DNA of 57,635 bases, taken from assembly GCA_002007405.1 (NCBI GenBank), contig JYIN01000007.1, positions 1-57,635 on the forward strand. The letters run 5' to 3'. This DNA comes from Gammaproteobacteria bacterium Gsub. GTDB taxonomy: Bacteria; Pseudomonadota; Gammaproteobacteria; PS1; Pseudothioglobaceae. Positions 3,240-13,726 of this stretch are shown here, in pieces (position 1 is the stretch's first letter; every line of letters begins with the position of its first letter). Position numbers and translations under genes: made by a program. The notes below the pieces were generated by a model. The model was not told the origin of the DNA, ran no database searches, and saw nothing but the letters and a program-made list of their open reading frames with translations.

Positions 3240-4601
3240 ATGTTTTTATTTGACCTGGCTTTAATTAAAAAATACGACCAATCTGGCCCAAGATACACGT
3301 CTTACCCCACAGCAAATAATTTTTCAAAATTTACACAACAACAATACGAAGCTCAAGTTGCACTAAGCAATAGTAGGCAAGGACCAATCTCATTGTATTG
3401 TCATATCCCATTTTGTGATACGGTATGTTTTTATTGTGGATGTAATAAAGTTGTTACTAAAGACAAAACAAAAGCTCAAACCTATCTGCAGGCCTTATTC
3501 AAAGAAATAGACATGCAAAGCATGCTATTTGATAAAACGCGCCAGGTGGAGCAAATGCATTTTGGTGGGGGAACTCCCACTTTTTTGTCCAATGAGCAAA
3601 TTATCAAGCTGAGTGAAAAATTACAAAGTGCTTTTTGGTTTGCTGATGACGGAGAATATTCCATTGAAATCGACCCACGGGGTGTGGATGGAAACACCAT
3701 TAAAGCCTTAATAAAGGCCAGATTTAATCGCATTAGTCTTGGCATACAAGACTTTAATACTGATGTACAAAAAGCGATTAATCGTATTCAAAGTTTTGAA
3801 CAAACACAGTCCGTTATTCGTATCGCCAGAGAAAATGGCTTTGAATCGGTCAGTATTGACTTAATTTATGGATTGCCGAAACAATCAGTTGAAACATTTA
3901 AAACAACACTCAACCAAGTGGCTGAATTACGACCAGATCGCATCTCTATCTTTAACTATGCACATCTTCCAGAGTTATTCAAACCACAAAGGCGTATCAA
4001 TATTGCGGAATTACCAAGTGCTGATGAAAAGTTGGCTATCTTTAAATATTCAATAGATTTTTTATTAGCACAAGGTTATGTTTATATTGGCATGGACCAT
4101 TTTGCCTTACCACAAGACCCACTTGCCATTGCACAAGAAGAGGGGCATCTTTATAGAAATTTTCAGGGTTATTCCACCCATGCTGATTGCGATATTGTTG
4201 GGCTTGGGCTAAGTTCTATTGCACAAGTAGGTGAGAGCTTTTCACAAAATGAAAAAGATTTAGACAGTTATTACCAAAAGATTAATATTGGTAAGTTGCC
4301 AGTCGTTAAAGGGAAAATAATCAGCAAAGATGACAAAATTAGACATGCGGTTATTATGGATTTGATTTGTCATTTTCAGTTTGATTTTGACAAAATAGAA
4401 CAAAATTTTTCTATTAACTTTAGAGATTATTTTAAGGATACATTTGCATCATTAACAGCAATGCACAATGACGGCTTAATTGAATTAGACAATCATTCAA
4501 TCCAAGTGATGGAAAAAGGTAAATTTTTAATCCGTAATATCTGCATGGTGTTTGATGCTTATTTAGCAACAAGCAAAACCCAATTTTCTAAAACCATATA
4601 A
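3240..4601 (+). CDS. hemN: Oxygen-independent coproporphyrinogen III oxidase
   Basis: This radical-SAM enzyme decarboxylates coproporphyrinogen III to protoporphyrinogen IX in haem synthesis without oxygen. The 453-residue length is that of true HemN. The [4Fe-4S] motif CxxxCxxCxC is present as CHIPFCDTVCFYCGC near residues 54-68. It is followed by the glycine-rich HFGGGTPTF segment and the HemN C-terminal domain from about 360. The sequence YTSYPTAN near the start is typical of HemN rather than the shorter HemW. The gene lies between two good attC sites, so it sits in the position of a cassette, which is unusual for a haem-pathway gene. Confidence 0.92.
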   Translation: MFLFDLALIKKYDQSGPRYTSYPTANNFSKFTQQQYEAQVALSNSRQGPISLYCHIPFCDTVCFYCGCNKVVTKDKTKAQTYLQALFKEIDMQSMLFDKTRQVEQMHFGGGTPTFLSNEQIIKLSEKLQSAFWFADDGEYSIEIDPRGVDGNTIKALIKARFNRISLGIQDFNTDVQKAINRIQSFEQTQSVIRIARENGFESVSIDLIYGLPKQSVETFKTTLNQVAELRPDRISIFNYAHLPELFKPQRRINIAELPSADEKLAIFKYSIDFLLAQGYVYIGMDHFALPQDPLAIAQEEGHLYRNFQGYSTHADCDIVGLGLSSIAQVGESFSQNEKDLDSYYQKINIGKLPVVKGKIISKDDKIRHAVIMDLICHFQFDFDKIEQNFSINFRDYFKDTFASLTAMHNDGLIELDNHSIQVMEKGKFLIRNICMVFDAYLATSKTQFSKTI

Positions 4602-4836: not shown

Positions 4837-4891
4837 ATATAACAAATCATTCCAGCCGACCGCTAACGCGTCAGGAGTTTAGGCGTTAGGA
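4837..4891 (+). repeat. attC site 5
   Basis: Cores are ATATAAC (4837-4843) and GTTAGGA (4885-4891). It shares its left arm with attC 4, 6 and 9, and contains the inner palindromic stretch around GCTAACGC. Confidence 0.8.
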
Positions 4892-4910
4892 AAATAATCT
4901 TGCTTTTCTC

Positions 4911-4939
4911 TTGCAATGCGAATGATTATCATTTATAAT
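4911..4939 (+). promoter_or_regulatory. Sigma-70 promoter overlapped by a Fur box
   Basis: A -35 box TTGCAA (4911-4916) and a -10 box TATAAT (4934-4939) are separated by exactly 17 bases. The spacer holds AATGATTATCATT (4921-4933), which matches 12 of the 13 central bases of the 19-bp Fur consensus. Iron-loaded Fur would block this promoter, so the exported protein at 5008 should be induced by iron shortage. The promoter belongs to the cassette itself, just downstream of attC 5. Confidence 0.75.
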
Positions 4940-5007
4940 TATCTCTGTTTGGCATTGCAACTCACCCCAGTGCCTTTCTACTTATAATTGGGTGTTGGAA
5001 ATCACAA

Positions 5008-5412
5008 ATGAAAAATTTAGCACTATTGTTTTTTACTCTCGCTCTTACATCACCTGTCCTAGCGAGTAGCGTATCATCAAAAGAAAAACCGATTCAGCAT
5101 TTCAAAGCAGCAGATGTTACTTCTATGCAAGATGCCACGAAAATTTTTATTGACAAAACATCTGAGATAAAGAGTAAGAAAAAACTTGACGCAACAGAAT
5201 TACATCAAATACATATCATCACTTATTCTCTTGAAAAAAGTGTTGCTTATTTTGTTGAAAACCTGACGAATGAAAGGCGAAAATTAGCAGAAAAGATTGC
5301 TACTGTTGTAGAAAATGTTCATCTCAATTCTGAGAACAACCGTAAAGAAAAAACACAGCAGCATTTAACTGAGTACTTTATATTGGCAGAAGATTTTATC
5401 TCTAAACTTTGA
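5008..5412 (+). CDS. Exported helical protein, DUF6746-like
   Basis: The 134-residue protein starts with a clear signal peptide (MKNLALLFFTLALTSPVLA, cleavage after residue 19). The mature part is polar and helical, including a segment resembling small periplasmic DUF6746-type proteins (ATELHQIHIITYSLEKSV). No catalytic motif is visible and the function is unknown. The Fur-box promoter 70 bases upstream suggests a role under iron limitation. It is a single-gene cassette between attC 5 and attC 6. The family assignment is tentative, while export and iron control are better supported. Confidence 0.65.
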   Translation: MKNLALLFFTLALTSPVLASSVSSKEKPIQHFKAADVTSMQDATKIFIDKTSEIKSKKKLDATELHQIHIITYSLEKSVAYFVENLTNERRKLAEKIATVVENVHLNSENNRKEKTQQHLTEYFILAEDFISKL

Positions 5413-5441
5413 AAATAAGAAGAATAAGAGGACAGAAAAAT

Positions 5442-5498
5442 CCCTAACAAATCATTCCAGCCGACCGCCTGCATGGCAGCTGAATTTAAGCGTTATAT
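5442..5498 (+). repeat. attC site 6
   Basis: Cores are CCCTAAC (5442-5448) and GTTATAT (5492-5498). It has the same left arm as attC 4, 5 and 9. The inner hairpin uses GCCTGCATGGC. Confidence 0.8.
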
Positions 5499-5512: not shown

Positions 5513-6148
5513 ATGTATATTTTTAATCGGCGTAAATTTATTAAGATTTCCACAATTGGCAGTTTCCTTGGCTTGTCTTCAACCAACAGTCTAGCTAATA
5601 CGGTTACTCCATCAGAAACAGAAGGTCCGTTTTACCCAATTACACCTCAGAAAGACCTTGACTTTGATTTAACCTCTATAAATGGTATAGACGGAGTAGC
5701 CAAAGGTCGGGTGGTATTTATACATGGTCAAGTAATAGACCAAGATTCAAAACCAGTTGAAGGTGCAACTGTTGATATTTGGCAGGCTAATGCAGCTGGT
5801 CGGTATCGGCATCCATATGATCCAAATCCAGCCCCTCTTGATCCCAGTTTTCAAGGATGGGCTATTGTTCAGAGTGGTAAAAAGGGCATGTTTCAGTTTA
5901 AAACTATCGTACCTGGTTCTTATCCTGTTCATGAGGAATGGGTGCGCCCGCCTCATATACATTTTAAAGTGTCGAAACGAGGCTATTCTGAACTGACTAC
6001 TCAAATGTATTTTCCAGAGAATGAACTGAATAAATTAGACCGGCTTTTGCAAGGAAAATCAAAGTCTGACCAGAGGTTAATGATTGCCAAGAAAATATCA
6101 GATAAACCTTATACTCTTGAATATACAATTACACTAGGCAAGGTATAA
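5513..6148 (+). CDS. Intradiol ring-cleavage dioxygenase-like protein, Tat-type signal
   Basis: The protein resembles the beta-type protocatechuate 3,4-dioxygenase/catechol 1,2-dioxygenase fold, non-haem Fe(III) enzymes that open catechol rings between the hydroxyls. The candidate iron ligands are present: Tyr in GRYRHPYD, a second Tyr in PGSYPVHEEW, and the two His of RPPHIHFKV. The N-terminus RRKFIKISTIGSFLGLSS looks like a twin-arginine signal, so the enzyme is probably periplasmic, as in the exported aromatic dioxygenase subfamily. The length of 211 residues is normal. It is a lone cassette gene whose stop overlaps the left core of attC 7. The substrate is unknown. Confidence 0.82.
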   Translation: MYIFNRRKFIKISTIGSFLGLSSTNSLANTVTPSETEGPFYPITPQKDLDFDLTSINGIDGVAKGRVVFIHGQVIDQDSKPVEGATVDIWQANAAGRYRHPYDPNPAPLDPSFQGWAIVQSGKKGMFQFKTIVPGSYPVHEEWVRPPHIHFKVSKRGYSELTTQMYFPENELNKLDRLLQGKSKSDQRLMIAKKISDKPYTLEYTITLGKV

Positions 6149-6435: not shown

Positions 6436-6589
6436 ATGAGAAATGTAGCGATTTTTAGTTGATGGTGATTTTTATCTAAAACAACATCGTAAATATTTTA
6501 AACAAAATGATGCAGAGCAAGTTTGTGCTTTGTATCAAGGCTATGCTATAAGGCATATCCTAACTAAGCACTTAAGTGGGACAGCCTAA
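6436..6589 (+). pseudogene. Broken NYN-domain (LabA/PIN-like nuclease) gene fragment
   Basis: After a good ribosome site (GAGGA) the ATG opens MRNVAIF, then one extra base near 6455 stops the frame. Correcting it gives VDGDFYLKQHRKYF, the typical start of NYN-domain proteins with the metal-binding aspartates of VDGD. The frame then runs straight into attC 8 and ends at its TAA after about 50 codons, whereas family members usually have well over 150 residues. The gene is both frameshifted and cut off by the attC. The same 3' fragment sits before attC 1 and attC 2. Confidence 0.7.
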
Positions 6590-6611
6590 CGGCTGCCCCT
6601 TAGTTTTAATG
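6521..6611 (+). repeat. Direct repeat copy 3 (NYN fragment plus attC)
   Basis: It matches 34-124 with a one-base deletion (CTATGC for CTTATGC) and a few substitutions. This copy keeps the NYN reading frame, so it is probably closest to the original of the three. Confidence 0.8.
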
Positions 6612-6617
6612 TTATGT
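6558..6617 (+). repeat. attC site 8
   Basis: Cores are TCCTAAC (6558-6564) and GTTATGT (6611-6617). The interior matches attC 1, with the hairpin in the CAGCC-TAAC-GGCTG orientation. Confidence 0.8.
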
Positions 6618-6704: not shown

Positions 6705-7691
6705 ATGGTCAATAATTCAGTTCAAATGCTAACAGGAAAAGCATTTGAATATTCTATATTAAAAGAATTTAAAGAGAAATTAAATACAATTACTAATGTT
6801 GAAGTTGTACAAAATAATGCCTTAAAAATAGCAAAGAGTTGTTTTAATGAATTTGAAAAACAAGAGCAAGGACGGTATTTACTAACGGCTAGTTTTGCAG
6901 TTAATTTTTTGATGGACATTGAGCCTAGACTTAGTAATGACCTAGGAAAAAAAGATATATTACAGTTAGAAATTCTAAATGATTATCAAGGTCAATTAGG
7001 TGATATTAGAGATGTTTTAACTATCCGTATTTTACAAAAATGGGAAATTGGCATTTCAGCCAAAAATAATCATAAAGCGGTCAAACATTCTAGACTATCA
7101 AATGATATTGACTTTGGGGGAAAGTGGTTAGGCATCCAATGTTCACAAGTTTATTTTGATGAGATTGGTTTAATTTTTACTCCTTTAAAAGAAATAAAAA
7201 TCACGAGCAAATCTACCCAAAAGTGGGATACTTTAAAAAGCAAAGAAGATGAAGTTTATGTACCAATCTTAAATGCTTTTAAAAAGGAATTAAGCAGAAT
7301 TTATCAAACAAATCCTAAACAAATAGCCAGTCAGTTAATTAAATATTTGGTGGGAAACAAAGATTTTTATAAAGTTATAAAAAGTAAAAATACACTTGAA
7401 ATTCAAGCATACAATATATATGGAACGCTAAATATTCCTTTTCAAAATATAGAGCCTAAATTTAAAACACCGCAAATAAACTTACCAGATAAAATTATTG
7501 GCATTGCTCTTAAGGAAAATTCAAAAACAACTTTAATTGTTGAATTTAATAATGATTGGAAATTATCTTTTAGGATACACAATGCCAGTTCAAGAATAGA
7601 GCCATCATTAAAATTTGACATTAATTTATTAAAAACACCTAATAGCTTATTTATTAATAAACTATCTCTACCCAAAGAGAAAATTAAATGA
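6705..7691 (+). CDS. HaeIII-type type II restriction endonuclease
   Basis: The 328-residue protein matches the HaeIII endonuclease family, which cuts GGCC. Recognisable family stretches are [12 protein letters not shown] near the start, [14 protein letters not shown], and the block [22 protein letters not shown] followed by [14 protein letters not shown]. In that block the Asp and Lys residues probably form the nuclease centre. Its last four bases overlap the start of the methyltransferase (ATGA overlap), so the pair is translated together. The two genes form one cassette between attC 8 and attC 9. The specificity is inferred from family membership. Confidence 0.85.
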
Positions 7692-8665
7692 ATATCGTAT
7701 CATTATTTTCAGGTGCTGGTGGTTTAGACAAGGGTTTTGAAGCAAGTGGTTTTAAAACAATATGGGCAAACGAATATGATAAAAATATTTGGGAAACTTA
7801 CGAAAAAAACTTTCCAAGTACTGTATTGGACAAACGCTCCATTAGAGATGTTCCTTCAAATGAAATTCCTGTGTGCGATGGAATTATCGGTGGTCCACCT
7901 TGTCAAAGTTGGAGTGAAGCAGGTGCTTTAAGAGGTATAAAAGATAAAAGAGGTCAGTTATTTTTTGAATTTATTAGAATTTTAAGAGATAAGAAACCTA
8001 AGTTTTTTTTAGCAGAAAATGTCTCTGGTATGTTGGCTGAACGCCACAAAGATGCGTTAAAAAATATTAAGAAATTATTTAGTGATAGCGGCTATAACTT
8101 ATCTTTTTCTCTTTTAAATGCAATTGATTATGGCGTTCCACAAACAAGAAAAAGGATTTTTTTTATAGGTATTAGGAAAGATTTAGAGTTTAATTTTACA
8201 TTTCCTAGCCCGTTAAAAAATAAACGAGTTTTAAATGATGTAATTTCCGATATTCAAGAAAGTGTATTGCCTGCAAAAGACAAACAAAAAACAAATAATG
8301 GCAATTGTCTGATACCTAATCACGAGTATATGATAGGAGATTTTTCAACAATTTTTATGTCTAGAAATAGAGTGAGAAGTTGGGATGAACCATCTTTTAC
8401 TATTCAAGCAGGGGGTAGGCATGCGCCACTACACCCACAAGCACCAAAAATGCAATTTATTCATCAAAATAAAAGGGTTTTTGTTGAAGGAAAAGAGAAA
8501 TTATACAGAAGATTAAGCATTAGAGAATGTGCAAGAATTCAAACTTTTCCAGATGATTATATTTTTCATTATAGTAATTTAGCAGATGGCTATAAAATGG
8601 TGGGTAATGCAGTTCCTTGTAATTTAGCCTATTGTTTAGCAAAAACTATTAAAGAGCAACTATAA
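7688..8665 (+). CDS. HaeIII-type DNA (cytosine-5) methyltransferase
   Basis: This is the protective partner of the upstream endonuclease. The 325 residues contain the SAM-binding motif LFSGAGGLD (6-14), the catalytic motif GGPPCQSW with Cys72, the ENV motif (AENVSGM), the QTRKR motif and the C-terminal GNAVP motif, in the usual C5-methyltransferase order. Similarity to M.HaeIII is evident along the whole length, including the target-recognition part ([19 protein letters not shown]). The expected product is 5-methylcytosine in GGCC. Complete and apparently functional. Confidence 0.93.
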
Positions 8666-8669
8666 AAGC

Positions 8670-8726
8670 ACCTAACAAATCATTCCAGCCGATTGCTAAC
8701 ACCGCCTCTGAGTTTTTATGTTAGGT
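8670..8726 (+). repeat. attC site 9
   Basis: Cores are ACCTAAC (8670-8676) and GTTAGGT (8720-8726), both consensus. Same left arm as attC 4, 5 and 6. Confidence 0.85.
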
Positions 8727-8764
8727 ATAGAGAAAAATCTGTATCAATTATATAAAATGAACTT

Positions 8765-10042
8765 ATGACAAAACATAAAATAATTTTAGGGGATAGTAGA
8801 AATATGCAGGAATTGCCTGATAATTCTATCAGTTTGGCAATAACCTCTCCCCCTTATTGGCAATTAAAGGATTATGGCACAGACAATCAAATTGGTTACA
8901 ACGACAGTTATGAAAAATACATCAACCACCTTAATATTGTTTGGCAAGAGTGTTTTCGAGTTTTAGAGAGCGGCAGTCGTTTATGTGTCAATATTGGCGA
9001 CCAATTTGCCAGAAGTGTATATTACGGGCGATATAAGGTCATGCCTATACGAACCGAAATCATAAAGTTTTGTGAGGCAATCGGTTTTGATTATATGGGA
9101 GCTATTATTTGGCAAAAAAAGACCACTTCAAACACAACTGGAGGGGCTTCTTTGATGGGAAGTTATCCTTTTCCAAAAAACGGTATTATCTCCATTGATT
9201 ATGAATTTATATTGATTTTCAAAAAATTGGGAACACCCAAGAAGCCGTCAAAAGACATAAAAGACGCATCAAAGATGAGCAAAGATGAATGGAAAACATA
9301 CTTTAACGGGCATTGGTATTTTGGTGGAGCAAGACAGGATGGGCATATTGCCATGTTTCCTGAAGAGTTGCCCAAAAGGCTTATTAAAATGTTTTCTTTT
9401 GTTGGTGATACTGTTCTTGACCCATTTTTAGGTAGTGGCACTACAACACTTGCAGCAAATAATTTACACAGGAAATCTATAGGTTATGAAGTCAATTCAG
9501 AACACATTCCGTTTATTGAAAAAAAATTAAACGACCTTTTTCAACCAGATTACGAATTAATTTATCAAAAACATTTAAATGAAAACTATGATGAGAAAAT
9601 TAAAAACTTGCCTTATGTGTTCAAAGATTTTCATTCATTCAATCTAAAAACAGACCCTAAAAAACTTTTATTTGGTTCAAAAATTGACCGACATAGTCCA
9701 GGAAAAAGGCAAGAGTATTTTTCTGTCAAGGAGCTCATTAGTCCAGAGCTATTAAGATTGAATAACAATATGACCATTAGGCTAATAGGGATTAAAGAAA
9801 GAAAAGAAATCAATGGCAAGGCATTGGCGTTTTTAAGGTTAAAAACTCTAAAACAAAAAGTTTTTTTGAAATATGATGCGATAACACATGATGAAAATAA
9901 TTATTTAATGGTGTACTTGTACTTAAAGAATAAGACATTTATCAATGCTCATCTTATTAAGAATGGATTGGCTGATATAGATACAAGTTACGACTATCGT
10001 AGTAAATCAAAATTTATACAGTTAGCACAATCCAATGGCTAA
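8765..10042 (+). CDS. Beta-class DNA amino-methyltransferase with C-terminal nuclease-like domain
   Basis: The first 260 residues are a beta-class N4/N6 methyltransferase. The catalytic motif TSPPYW (27-32) precedes the SAM motif DPFLGSGTT (about 219-227). TSPPYW and the MjaI-like partner suggest N4-cytosine methylation, possibly in CTAG. Residues about 335-420 look like the C-terminal half of a staphylococcal-nuclease (TNase) domain: RLIGI, a GKALAFL helix, then LMVYLYLKNKTFINAHLIKNGLA. The Asp loop and the Glu of an active nuclease are not evident, so this part may only bind DNA. The stop overlaps the start of the endonuclease gene by 9 bases. Confidence 0.85.
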   Translation: MTKHKIILGDSRNMQELPDNSISLAITSPPYWQLKDYGTDNQIGYNDSYEKYINHLNIVWQECFRVLESGSRLCVNIGDQFARSVYYGRYKVMPIRTEIIKFCEAIGFDYMGAIIWQKKTTSNTTGGASLMGSYPFPKNGIISIDYEFILIFKKLGTPKKPSKDIKDASKMSKDEWKTYFNGHWYFGGARQDGHIAMFPEELPKRLIKMFSFVGDTVLDPFLGSGTTTLAANNLHRKSIGYEVNSEHIPFIEKKLNDLFQPDYELIYQKHLNENYDEKIKNLPYVFKDFHSFNLKTDPKKLLFGSKIDRHSPGKRQEYFSVKELISPELLRLNNNMTIRLIGIKERKEINGKALAFLRLKTLKQKVFLKYDAITHDENNYLMVYLYLKNKTFINAHLIKNGLADIDTSYDYRSKSKFIQLAQSNG

Positions 10043-10674
10043 AGAGTGGATACTAAATAGCACGCACAACCAACCGATTTCAATTGAATTTTAAGAGAAA
10101 TGTTGGCGCAACATCTGAAAGTATAAGAAACTGTGAGCCAAAATCATTACAACAATGGCGGGATTATTATTTTTCCAAAGTAAAAAGTGAAGAACACATT
10201 AAAGAACTTGGTAAAAAACTCTATATTAAAATAACGGAAGTCATTCAGGCAGAAGTAGATGAAATTAGCGAACAAGATTGTATAGATTATTTGTTTAACC
10301 TCGTCATAACCCGCACTTATGAAGGCTACCAAACCGAAATAAAAACAGTTTATGGTCAATTAGAGAAAGAGCTAAATTGTGATATTACGGCAGCTCCTGA
10401 TGAATGGGATAGGCTATACAATGTGGATTTTTTTATCCAAGTCAAAAAGAGTTACATCGGAATTCAAATAAAACCCATTAGCCAAGGCATTCAACTGCCA
10501 CAAATATTTAAAGAAAAGGACATACAAAAGGATACTCATAAGCAGTTTGAAAAACAATATGGTGGAAAAGTTTTTTATGTTTTTTCTGCCAAGGATAATG
10601 GCAAGAAAATAATCACTAATGTTGATGTTATCCAAAATATACGCGATGAGATTAATAGGTTAAGTAGCACCTAA
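10034..10674 (+). pseudogene. MjaI-family restriction endonuclease, frameshifted near its start
   Basis: From ATG 10034 the frame reads MAKEWILNSTHNQPISIEF and stops at TAA after 19 codons. Removing one T from the TTTT run at about 10091-10094 joins it to the long frame (KRNVGATSESIRNC onward). The joined protein resembles MjaI, a CTAG endonuclease, with the conserved block APDEWDRLYNVDFFIQV followed by GIQIKP (likely Asp and Gln/Lys of the nuclease centre). If the shift is real, only a product from TTG 10084, lacking the first 17-19 residues, could be made. It partners the upstream methyltransferase in one cassette. Confidence 0.72.
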
Positions 10675-12251: not shown

Positions 12252-13073
12252 ATGAAAGATTACGATATTATAAAGGGTGATTGTATTTTAACTACTCAAA
12301 AAATAGAGGAAGAATCAATAGATTTATCCGTTTTCTCTCCGCCTTACGACAATATAAGAGACTACAAAAAAGGCTGGGTTTTTGATTATTCTGCGCTTGG
12401 CAAAAACCTATACAAAATTACTAAAGATGGTGGCGTTTGTGCTGTTGTTATTGGCGATGGCACAAAAAACTTTGCAAAGTCTTTAACGACTTTTAAATTG
12501 GCTGTTAATTGGTGTGAAAATGCCAATTGGCGTTTGTTTGAAACTTGTATTTATCAAAGAGATGGTAACCCTGGCGCCTGGTGGAAAAGTCGCTTTAGAG
12601 TTGACCACGAGTATGTTTTATTATTTTTCAAAGGGGGACGCCCCAAAACTTTTAATAAAGAACCATTGATGATACCTGCAAAACATGCAGGAAAGATGTA
12701 TTCAGGAACAGACAGACTGACGAATGGTAATTTTAAGAAAATAAAACCAAAAACAGTTAACTCAATGAAATGCAGAGGAACTGTTTGGAAGTATGGAACG
12801 AGTAATACGGAGGGTAATCGTATTAAACTAGAGCACCCAGCCACCTATCCTGACAAGTTAGCACAGGATTTAATTTTATGTTTTTCTAAACCTGGCGATG
12901 TTGTGCTTGACCCAATGTGTGGCAGTGGCACAACTTGTGTTATGGCTATTAAGAATAATCGTAAAACCATCGGCATTGACATAAATTCTGATTATTGCGA
13001 TATTACTAAGAATCGTATTAAAAATGAAACAACACAACAGCAAATTATGTTTGAAAAATTAGCAACGATATGA
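12252..13073 (+). CDS. Beta-class DNA amino-methyltransferase of a third R-M system
   Basis: The 273-residue enzyme has the catalytic motif FSPPYDN (SPPY at 29-32) before the SAM motif DPMCGSGTT (about 220-228), the order of beta-class N4-cytosine or N6-adenine methyltransferases. The recognition sequence cannot be read from the protein. The start of the endonuclease-like gene overlaps its stop by four bases (ATGA), so they form one operon and one cassette between attC 12 and attC 13. Confidence 0.88.
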   Translation: MKDYDIIKGDCILTTQKIEEESIDLSVFSPPYDNIRDYKKGWVFDYSALGKNLYKITKDGGVCAVVIGDGTKNFAKSLTTFKLAVNWCENANWRLFETCIYQRDGNPGAWWKSRFRVDHEYVLLFFKGGRPKTFNKEPLMIPAKHAGKMYSGTDRLTNGNFKKIKPKTVNSMKCRGTVWKYGTSNTEGNRIKLEHPATYPDKLAQDLILCFSKPGDVVLDPMCGSGTTCVMAIKNNRKTIGIDINSDYCDITKNRIKNETTQQQIMFEKLATI

Positions 13074-13726
13074 TAGAGGCAATTTATAAAGAAGATAAAA
13101 TTTTACTTGTCAATACTCTCAACAAAGCACCTAAAAAATGGGATGGAAAACAATCTATTCTTGAGTTGAAAGAGAGAAATTATCAATGGCGACAAATGGA
13201 ATGGATGGGTTGGTATTTTGAAGTGTTATGCCAAGATTTATTATCTAAGACAGATTTTAAAATACCTGGCAATAAATATGGCAATATTGAGTTTGATAGT
13301 TTTCGCATGATTAACTGGGATATGAAAACCAGTGCCATAAAATCAGATAATCATAAAGTTATTCTCAATGATAAGATAGCAATTAACGAAAGTATAAAGG
13401 CATTTGGTCATCACGGTATTATTTTGGCATTAGTGGATGTGGAATATAATGACAAAAATCGCAGTTTTCAAAAATGGCACACAAAGTTAAAGGGAGGGTT
13501 ATCAAAATATGAAAAAAATAGGATTACTAGAAATGCAACTTCTCGTTATCGTAAAACATCTGCTGAATTAAAGCAGATACTGCTACTTATAATAAATCAA
13601 GATAATCAGTCATATTTAGATATTCACAGACAAGGTAGAAATTCTGACGGTAGCCTTAGAAATGTAAAATATATGCTTAATATTGAACAGGCACATTATT
13701 TTGAAATAGGTAGAATAGATTTTTAA
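13070..13726 (+). CDS. Probable type II restriction endonuclease
   Basis: The 218-residue protein overlaps a DNA methyltransferase gene, which by context makes it the matching endonuclease. It contains a PD-(D/E)XK-like centre: FDSF with Asp76, then NWDMKTSA with Asp84 and Lys86. Further conserved-looking blocks are RQMEWMGWYFEVLC and KWHTKLKGGLSKYE. I recognise the general type of this protein from other R-M loci but cannot name its specificity. Complete, with no sign of damage. Confidence 0.7.
   Translation: MIEAIYKEDKILLVNTLNKAPKKWDGKQSILELKERNYQWRQMEWMGWYFEVLCQDLLSKTDFKIPGNKYGNIEFDSFRMINWDMKTSAIKSDNHKVILNDKIAINESIKAFGHHGIILALVDVEYNDKNRSFQKWHTKLKGGLSKYEKNRITRNATSRYRKTSAELKQILLLIINQDNQSYLDIHRQGRNSDGSLRNVKYMLNIEQAHYFEIGRIDF

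Follow-up and report, generated by a model that had tools for sequence, protein, structure and literature searches.

We found that a 607-bp unit in an attC array of Gammaproteobacteria bacterium Gsub is very probably an integron-type gene cassette carrying its own predicted Fur-repressed sigma-70 promoter, with the gene apparently mobilised along with both the promoter and the leader of its transcript. The unit lies in a 57,635-nucleotide stretch of one contig (hereafter, the window) and codes for a small exported protein of the DUF6746 family. Its features, given by window coordinates, are the following:

4839-4890, + strand: attC 5, the attC-like element preceding the cassette, with one of the four occurrences of YAACAAATCATTCCAGCCGAC (chance mean 0.01)
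4886-5492, + strand: gene cassette unit of 607 bp between two bounding attC-like elements, comprising the promoter, the leader, the DUF6746 gene and the greater part of the next attC
4911-4916, + strand: -35 hexamer TTGCAA, matching the consensus at 4/6 positions, with TTGTAA at the same place in the nearest relative, L011
4915-4933, + strand: predicted Fur operator AATGCGAATGATTATCATT, a 19-bp imperfect inverted repeat, identified by the motif of distant DUF6746 promoters and by the E. coli Fur matrix
4934-4939, + strand: -10 hexamer TATAAT, matching the consensus at 6/6 positions; L011 has TAGAAT here
4951-4994, + strand: stretch of the mRNA leader that could fold into an H-type pseudoknot, judged from 12 aligned leaders
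5008-5412, + strand: 134-aa exported protein, DUF6746 (PF20531; Pfam E 1.4e-15, 57.8 bits against a gathering cut-off of 27)
5444-5498, + strand: attC-like element closing the cassette, a copy of the attC core

The initial annotation had proposed a promoter with an ideal spacing of 17 bases and a near-perfect Fur core, placed between attC 5 and an exported protein. The spacing was borne out, as the promoter reads TTGCAA-17-TATAAT at 4911-4939 with TGCGAATGATTATCATT as the 17-nt spacer, and so was the placement, between the attC-like element at about 4839-4890 and the ATG at 5008; the mRNA would start near 4946. The operator, with the half-sites AATGCG...ATCATT, fills the spacer and touches both the -35 and the -10 hexamers. 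The 13-bp core AATGATTATCATT (4921-4933) forms the right part of this 19-bp repeat and does lie entirely within the spacer, so that the Fur site is longer than first described. The -35 hexamer agrees with its consensus at only 4/6 positions and the operator with the 19-bp Fur consensus GATAATGATWATCATTATC at 14/19. Searching with this consensus and allowing up to 3 mismatches gave no match at 4915-4933, and the ten known E. coli sites themselves agree with it at 13-17 positions.

We then scored the site with a Fur weight matrix made from ten known E. coli K-12 Fur promoters. At 15.5 bits it falls within the range of the ten known sites (12.6-21.3 bits) and is the best Fur-like site by this matrix across the entire window. 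Scores of at least 13.5 bits are expected by chance 0.007 times per kb, which by our own arithmetic amounts to about 0.0008 in the 117 nt from the attC to the ATG. This resembles the Fur-repressed enterobacterial promoters (fepA/fes, fhuF, fecI, exbB) in having an inverted repeat in the promoter and in the range of matrix scores; those, however, belong to chromosomal iron-uptake operons rather than to a cassette.

The strongest line of evidence comes from the relatives of the encoded protein. DUF6746 genes elsewhere in the Gammaproteobacteria belong to the same family, are likewise stand-alone genes and are preceded by a Fur box in about two thirds of the cases; the protein from the window represents a divergent branch, being only 16-25% identical to these classic members. 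With the E. coli Fur matrix, the upstream regions of 24 DUF6746 genes scored a mean of 9.8 bits, compared to 4.1 for 274 neighbouring genes (Mann-Whitney U p 1.1e-8; as the tested DUF6746 genes are related to each other, this and the following p-values overstate independence and are indicative only). The difference held when the comparison was made with 116 genes whose upstream DNA is intergenic (p 2.4e-6), and the score gain was above that of all 1000 symmetric column-permuted Fur matrices. Further, unsupervised motif discovery on the DUF6746 promoters, in which no Fur matrix was used, recovered AATGCgAATnATTATCATT with a log-likelihood of 147, compared to 64-77 for eight control sets.

The initial annotation had suggested a search for the same promoter with homologues of the 134-residue protein, and the motif was indeed recovered both in distant DUF6746 promoters and in a hold-out set. 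The motif was retrained in two ways, once on a set that excluded the window and once on just 14 classic members (at most 25% identity). Without the window, its best match there is 4915-4933, at 24.6 bits, with the next best at 14.5; trained on the 14 classic members, it finds the same site at 24.2 bits, with the next best in the window at 15.7. The motif from the distant promoters (at most 25% identity) reads AATGCGAATGATTaTCATT, and the cassette matches it at 19/19 positions. In the hold-out set, 12 of 18 previously unused DUF6746 promoters contained a match of at least 15 bits, as against 2 of 211 flank windows (p 6.6e-10). When the motif was applied to E. coli DNA, 9 of the 12 top sites fell inside ten Fur promoters constituting 4% of the scanned DNA (p 5e-11), which identifies it as a Fur operator. 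No box is seen at roughly a quarter to a third of the DUF6746 genes (e.g., L052, L055, L061, L086 and L087). Two close relatives, L107 and L111 (56-61% identical to the window protein), have neither the leader nor an obvious Fur box. No conserved iron-related neighbours of DUF6746 genes were found, with any one Pfam family common to at most 2 of 45 neighbours. DUF6746 is most likely a widespread, hitherto unrecognised Fur-regulon family, captured here as a cassette along with its promoter.

The whole unit is shared with the nearest relative, L011, from another gammaproteobacterial assembly (69% protein identity). DNA similarity extends over window positions 4878-5400: it begins at the cassette recombination point, takes in the promoter and continues as far as the gene does. 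The two have TTGYAAT-RCGAAT-ATT-TCATTTA-AATT in common, with the -35 hexamer, the box and the -10 hexamer in register. A further relative, L074, has the same promoter layout, and in both the operator is conserved at the same position relative to the -10 hexamer. No attC was seen by eye around L011, and none around L062, which was accordingly rejected as a second DUF6746 cassette. The similarity of the whole unit in L011 fits the capture of gene and promoter as a single cassette, and most likely the gene and its predicted iron control moved together.

These comparisons also bear on whether the Fur-like box might be a chance AT-rich palindrome in an otherwise ordinary constitutive cassette promoter. 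The window is AT-rich (37.6% GC), promoter hexamers by themselves are not above chance in it (77 in 20 kb, where shuffling predicts 85.8), and the exact 13-mer, which occurs once in the 1.37-Mb genome, would by our estimate be expected about 0.2-0.3 times per genome. Nevertheless, a motif trained on other genomes predicts the 19-bp site exactly; this, the constant place of the site relative to the -10 hexamer in L011 and L074, and the result of the hold-out test make such an accident very unlikely.

The host appears equipped to read the operator. Its genome codes for one Fur-family protein of 135 aa, a Fur equivalog by NCBIfam (195.8 bits against a cut-off of 146), whose nearest match in the PDB is an E. 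coli-type Fur. The matrix was run over chosen stretches of the host genome, and the strongest box in these (17.2 bits) lies upstream of an operon with the genes for the ATP-binding and periplasmic iron-binding proteins of a ferric-iron ABC transporter. A 13.1-bit box precedes an LbtU-like porin gene, the product of which scores below its family cut-off, and a 15.7-bit site on contig 2 falls inside a coding region and is probably due to chance. Given a single true Fur and boxes before host iron-uptake genes, the host Fur very likely reads such sites. One might still suppose a genuine operator that answers to a different metal regulator, from the Fur family or unrelated to it (Zur, Mur or PerR type), given that operators of the Fur family look alike and that the host fur gene adjoins a znuB-like zinc permease gene. 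We consider this very unlikely: the sole Fur-family protein found is the Fur equivalog, which reaches only 49.9 against the Zur cut-off of 167, and the DUF6746 motif re-finds the E. coli Fur promoters. The comparative test, the host Fur and the boxes at host iron-uptake genes together support the earlier proposal of a Fur-controlled promoter inside the cassette.

We next consider the cassette itself. GTTAGG occupies 4885-4890, with the recombination point between 4885 and 4886; because attC-like elements flank the unit, the cassette extends over about 4886-5492, and the promoter therefore lies inside it. The four attC core copies stand at the ends of successive genes, which are co-directional here, and the DUF6746 gene lies between attC-like elements in the same direction, as in integron cassettes. 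No integron integrase was found in the host genome above the IntI cut-off, the only candidates being tyrosine recombinases scoring far below it. The array runs into the contig end, where an assembly gap may lie, and does not constitute a complete integron. The locus is best described as an attC array with no visible integrase, perhaps owing to the contig end.

Predicted bottom-strand folding of three of the four attC-like elements, attC 5 among them, was no better than that of shuffled sequences, suggesting that attC 5 may be degenerate. Together with the lack of an identified integrase, this makes present-day mobility doubtful. It is thus quite possible, though short of probable, that the Fur-regulated gene is a relic between decayed attC sites in an inert array, a reading compatible with Fur control and also favoured by the site reading GTTAGGA rather than GTTRRRY. 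Against such decay stand the four core copies, each ending one of successive genes, and the common direction of all genes in this part of the array.

Several other features of the array were observed. Repeats of 128 nt of the attC type occur at 1-128, 1625-1752 and 6487-6614, the second and third being 95% and 70% identical to the first. As the contig starts inside such a repeat, an assembly break is likely. Just before the DUF6746 cassette, at 3240-4601, stands an entire hemN, coding for an oxygen-independent coproporphyrinogen III oxidase (609.6 bits); as a housekeeping-type gene, it is unusual in such a location within an array. Judging from translations, restriction-modification-like genes are found among the cassettes at 6705-10674 and 12252-13726, namely three DNA methyltransferase-like ORFs, one of them of the cytosine type. 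The cassette following that of DUF6746 (5513-6148) codes for an intradiol dioxygenase (PF00775), in which NRRKFIKIS resembles a twin-arginine signal. As no terminator was found between the two, read-through and co-expression of the dioxygenase under low iron is possible.

Between the promoter and the gene lies a potentially structured leader. In the candidate pseudoknot, stem 1 would pair GGCATT (4951-4956) with AGTGCC (4969-4974), and stem 2 the loop CACCC (4963-4967) with GGGTG (4990-4994), just 5' of the ribosome-binding site. This leader is conserved in L011 (300-377), L074 (6744-6817) and most of one genus (L102-L106 and L108-L110). Across the 12 aligned leaders, 99.2% of cells are paired, 3 pairs are changed on both sides and only 1 of 500 shuffles scored as high, figures that are suggestive only because the structure was read from the same sequences, eight of which are close relatives. 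Sliding the pseudoknot partners abolishes the pairing signal.

A model of stem 1 alone recovered a further copy of the leader in an unrelated genome (L121:653-725, E 7e-8), where it directly follows a classical attC, precedes a different ORF that is exported and apparently interrupted, and is without a Fur box. By eye, L121 (G217:C53:1-2225) is a classical attC array with a glyoxalase-like cassette, and the ORF of its leader cassette has a stop immediately after the signal peptide. The leaders of L121, L102-L106 and L108-L110 start with a GTTAGGC-like word, the usual attC end; the genes of L102-L106 and L108-L110 look chromosomal, and the word may mark an old cassette boundary there. An attC as the origin of the leader structure itself was rejected, as no RYYYAAC...GTTRRRY pair is present in it. 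Searches with the leader gave only chance-level matches and no credible one in Rfam, no match or short chance matches in plasmids, none in viral contigs (with one 23-mer query), and, among 383 genomes from the phylum, nothing beyond the window itself and a single weak match. We tentatively suggest, while regarding it as rather unlikely, that two control layers travel here: a Fur-operated promoter and a structured leader. The latter would be a module of its own, an undescribed RNA element that sets how cassette-borne exported proteins are translated, with a metal or metabolite as a possible signal.

DUF6746 was present in 15 of 369 sampled Gammaproteobacteria but was absent from the other 35 genomes sampled within the family of the host, which points to horizontal acquisition. 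Relatives of the window protein were found neither in plasmids nor in viral contigs, and a literature search returned no paper on DUF6746. By inspection, the protein has the signal peptide MKNLALLFFTLALTSPVLA-S. An AlphaFold2 model built from two sequences, those of the window protein and L011, has a mean pLDDT of 78.8, rising to about 90 over residues 41-134, and predicts four helices (residues 40-55, 62-85, 88-109 and 113-132). Nine residues (A43, H69, Y73, A98, E102, H105, S108, E109 and Y123) are invariant across 24 members, and H31 and E76 are almost invariant. By their spacing, H69-Y73-E76 and E102-H105-E109 would each lie on one face of two helices. We would guess from these conserved residues that DUF6746 is a metal- or haem-binding four-helix bundle and, because the gene family is normally preceded by a Fur box, that the protein has a role in the response to iron starvation.

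Cassettes are usually viewed as promoterless, with their expression dependent on position. The view taken in the initial annotation, that the integron promoter is needed to express most cassettes, is fair in general, but many have their own promoter, including cmlA1, qac, qnrVC1 and toxin-antitoxin cassettes (PMC8876359), and neither an integrase nor Pc is visible in this genome. The present case resembles these in having a Pc-independent promoter inside the cassette, a long 5' untranslated region and the sense direction; it differs in that a putative Fur site overlaps the promoter, whereas none described there is under Fur (PMC8876359). In qnrB, with its LexA-regulated promoter in complex class 1 integrons, a mobile gene likewise retains the operator of a host regulator; however, control there is by LexA/SOS rather than Fur/iron, and the gene is linked to ISCR1 rather than being an ordinary attC cassette (PMC8876359). 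We found no Fur-controlled integron cassettes in the searchable open literature. While cassettes with their own promoter are known, what appears to be new here is one putatively under the iron repressor and drawn from a family-wide, unrecognised member of the Fur regulon.

Mechanistically, iron-loaded Fur would bind the operator between and across the -35 and -10 hexamers and block RNA polymerase; when iron is scarce, Fur would leave and a leadered mRNA for the small exported protein would be made, with the leader perhaps tuning its translation. Such derepression would be independent of the position of the cassette in the array. The Fur box, being normal upstream of DUF6746 genes across the Gammaproteobacteria, would not have been acquired in the array, and the gene would have been captured horizontally, in cassette form, with promoter and leader in place. 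A cassette that brings along a binding site for a widespread repressor would be sensibly regulated at once in a new host, and DUF6746, a family of unknown function, gains a testable role in the iron-starvation response.
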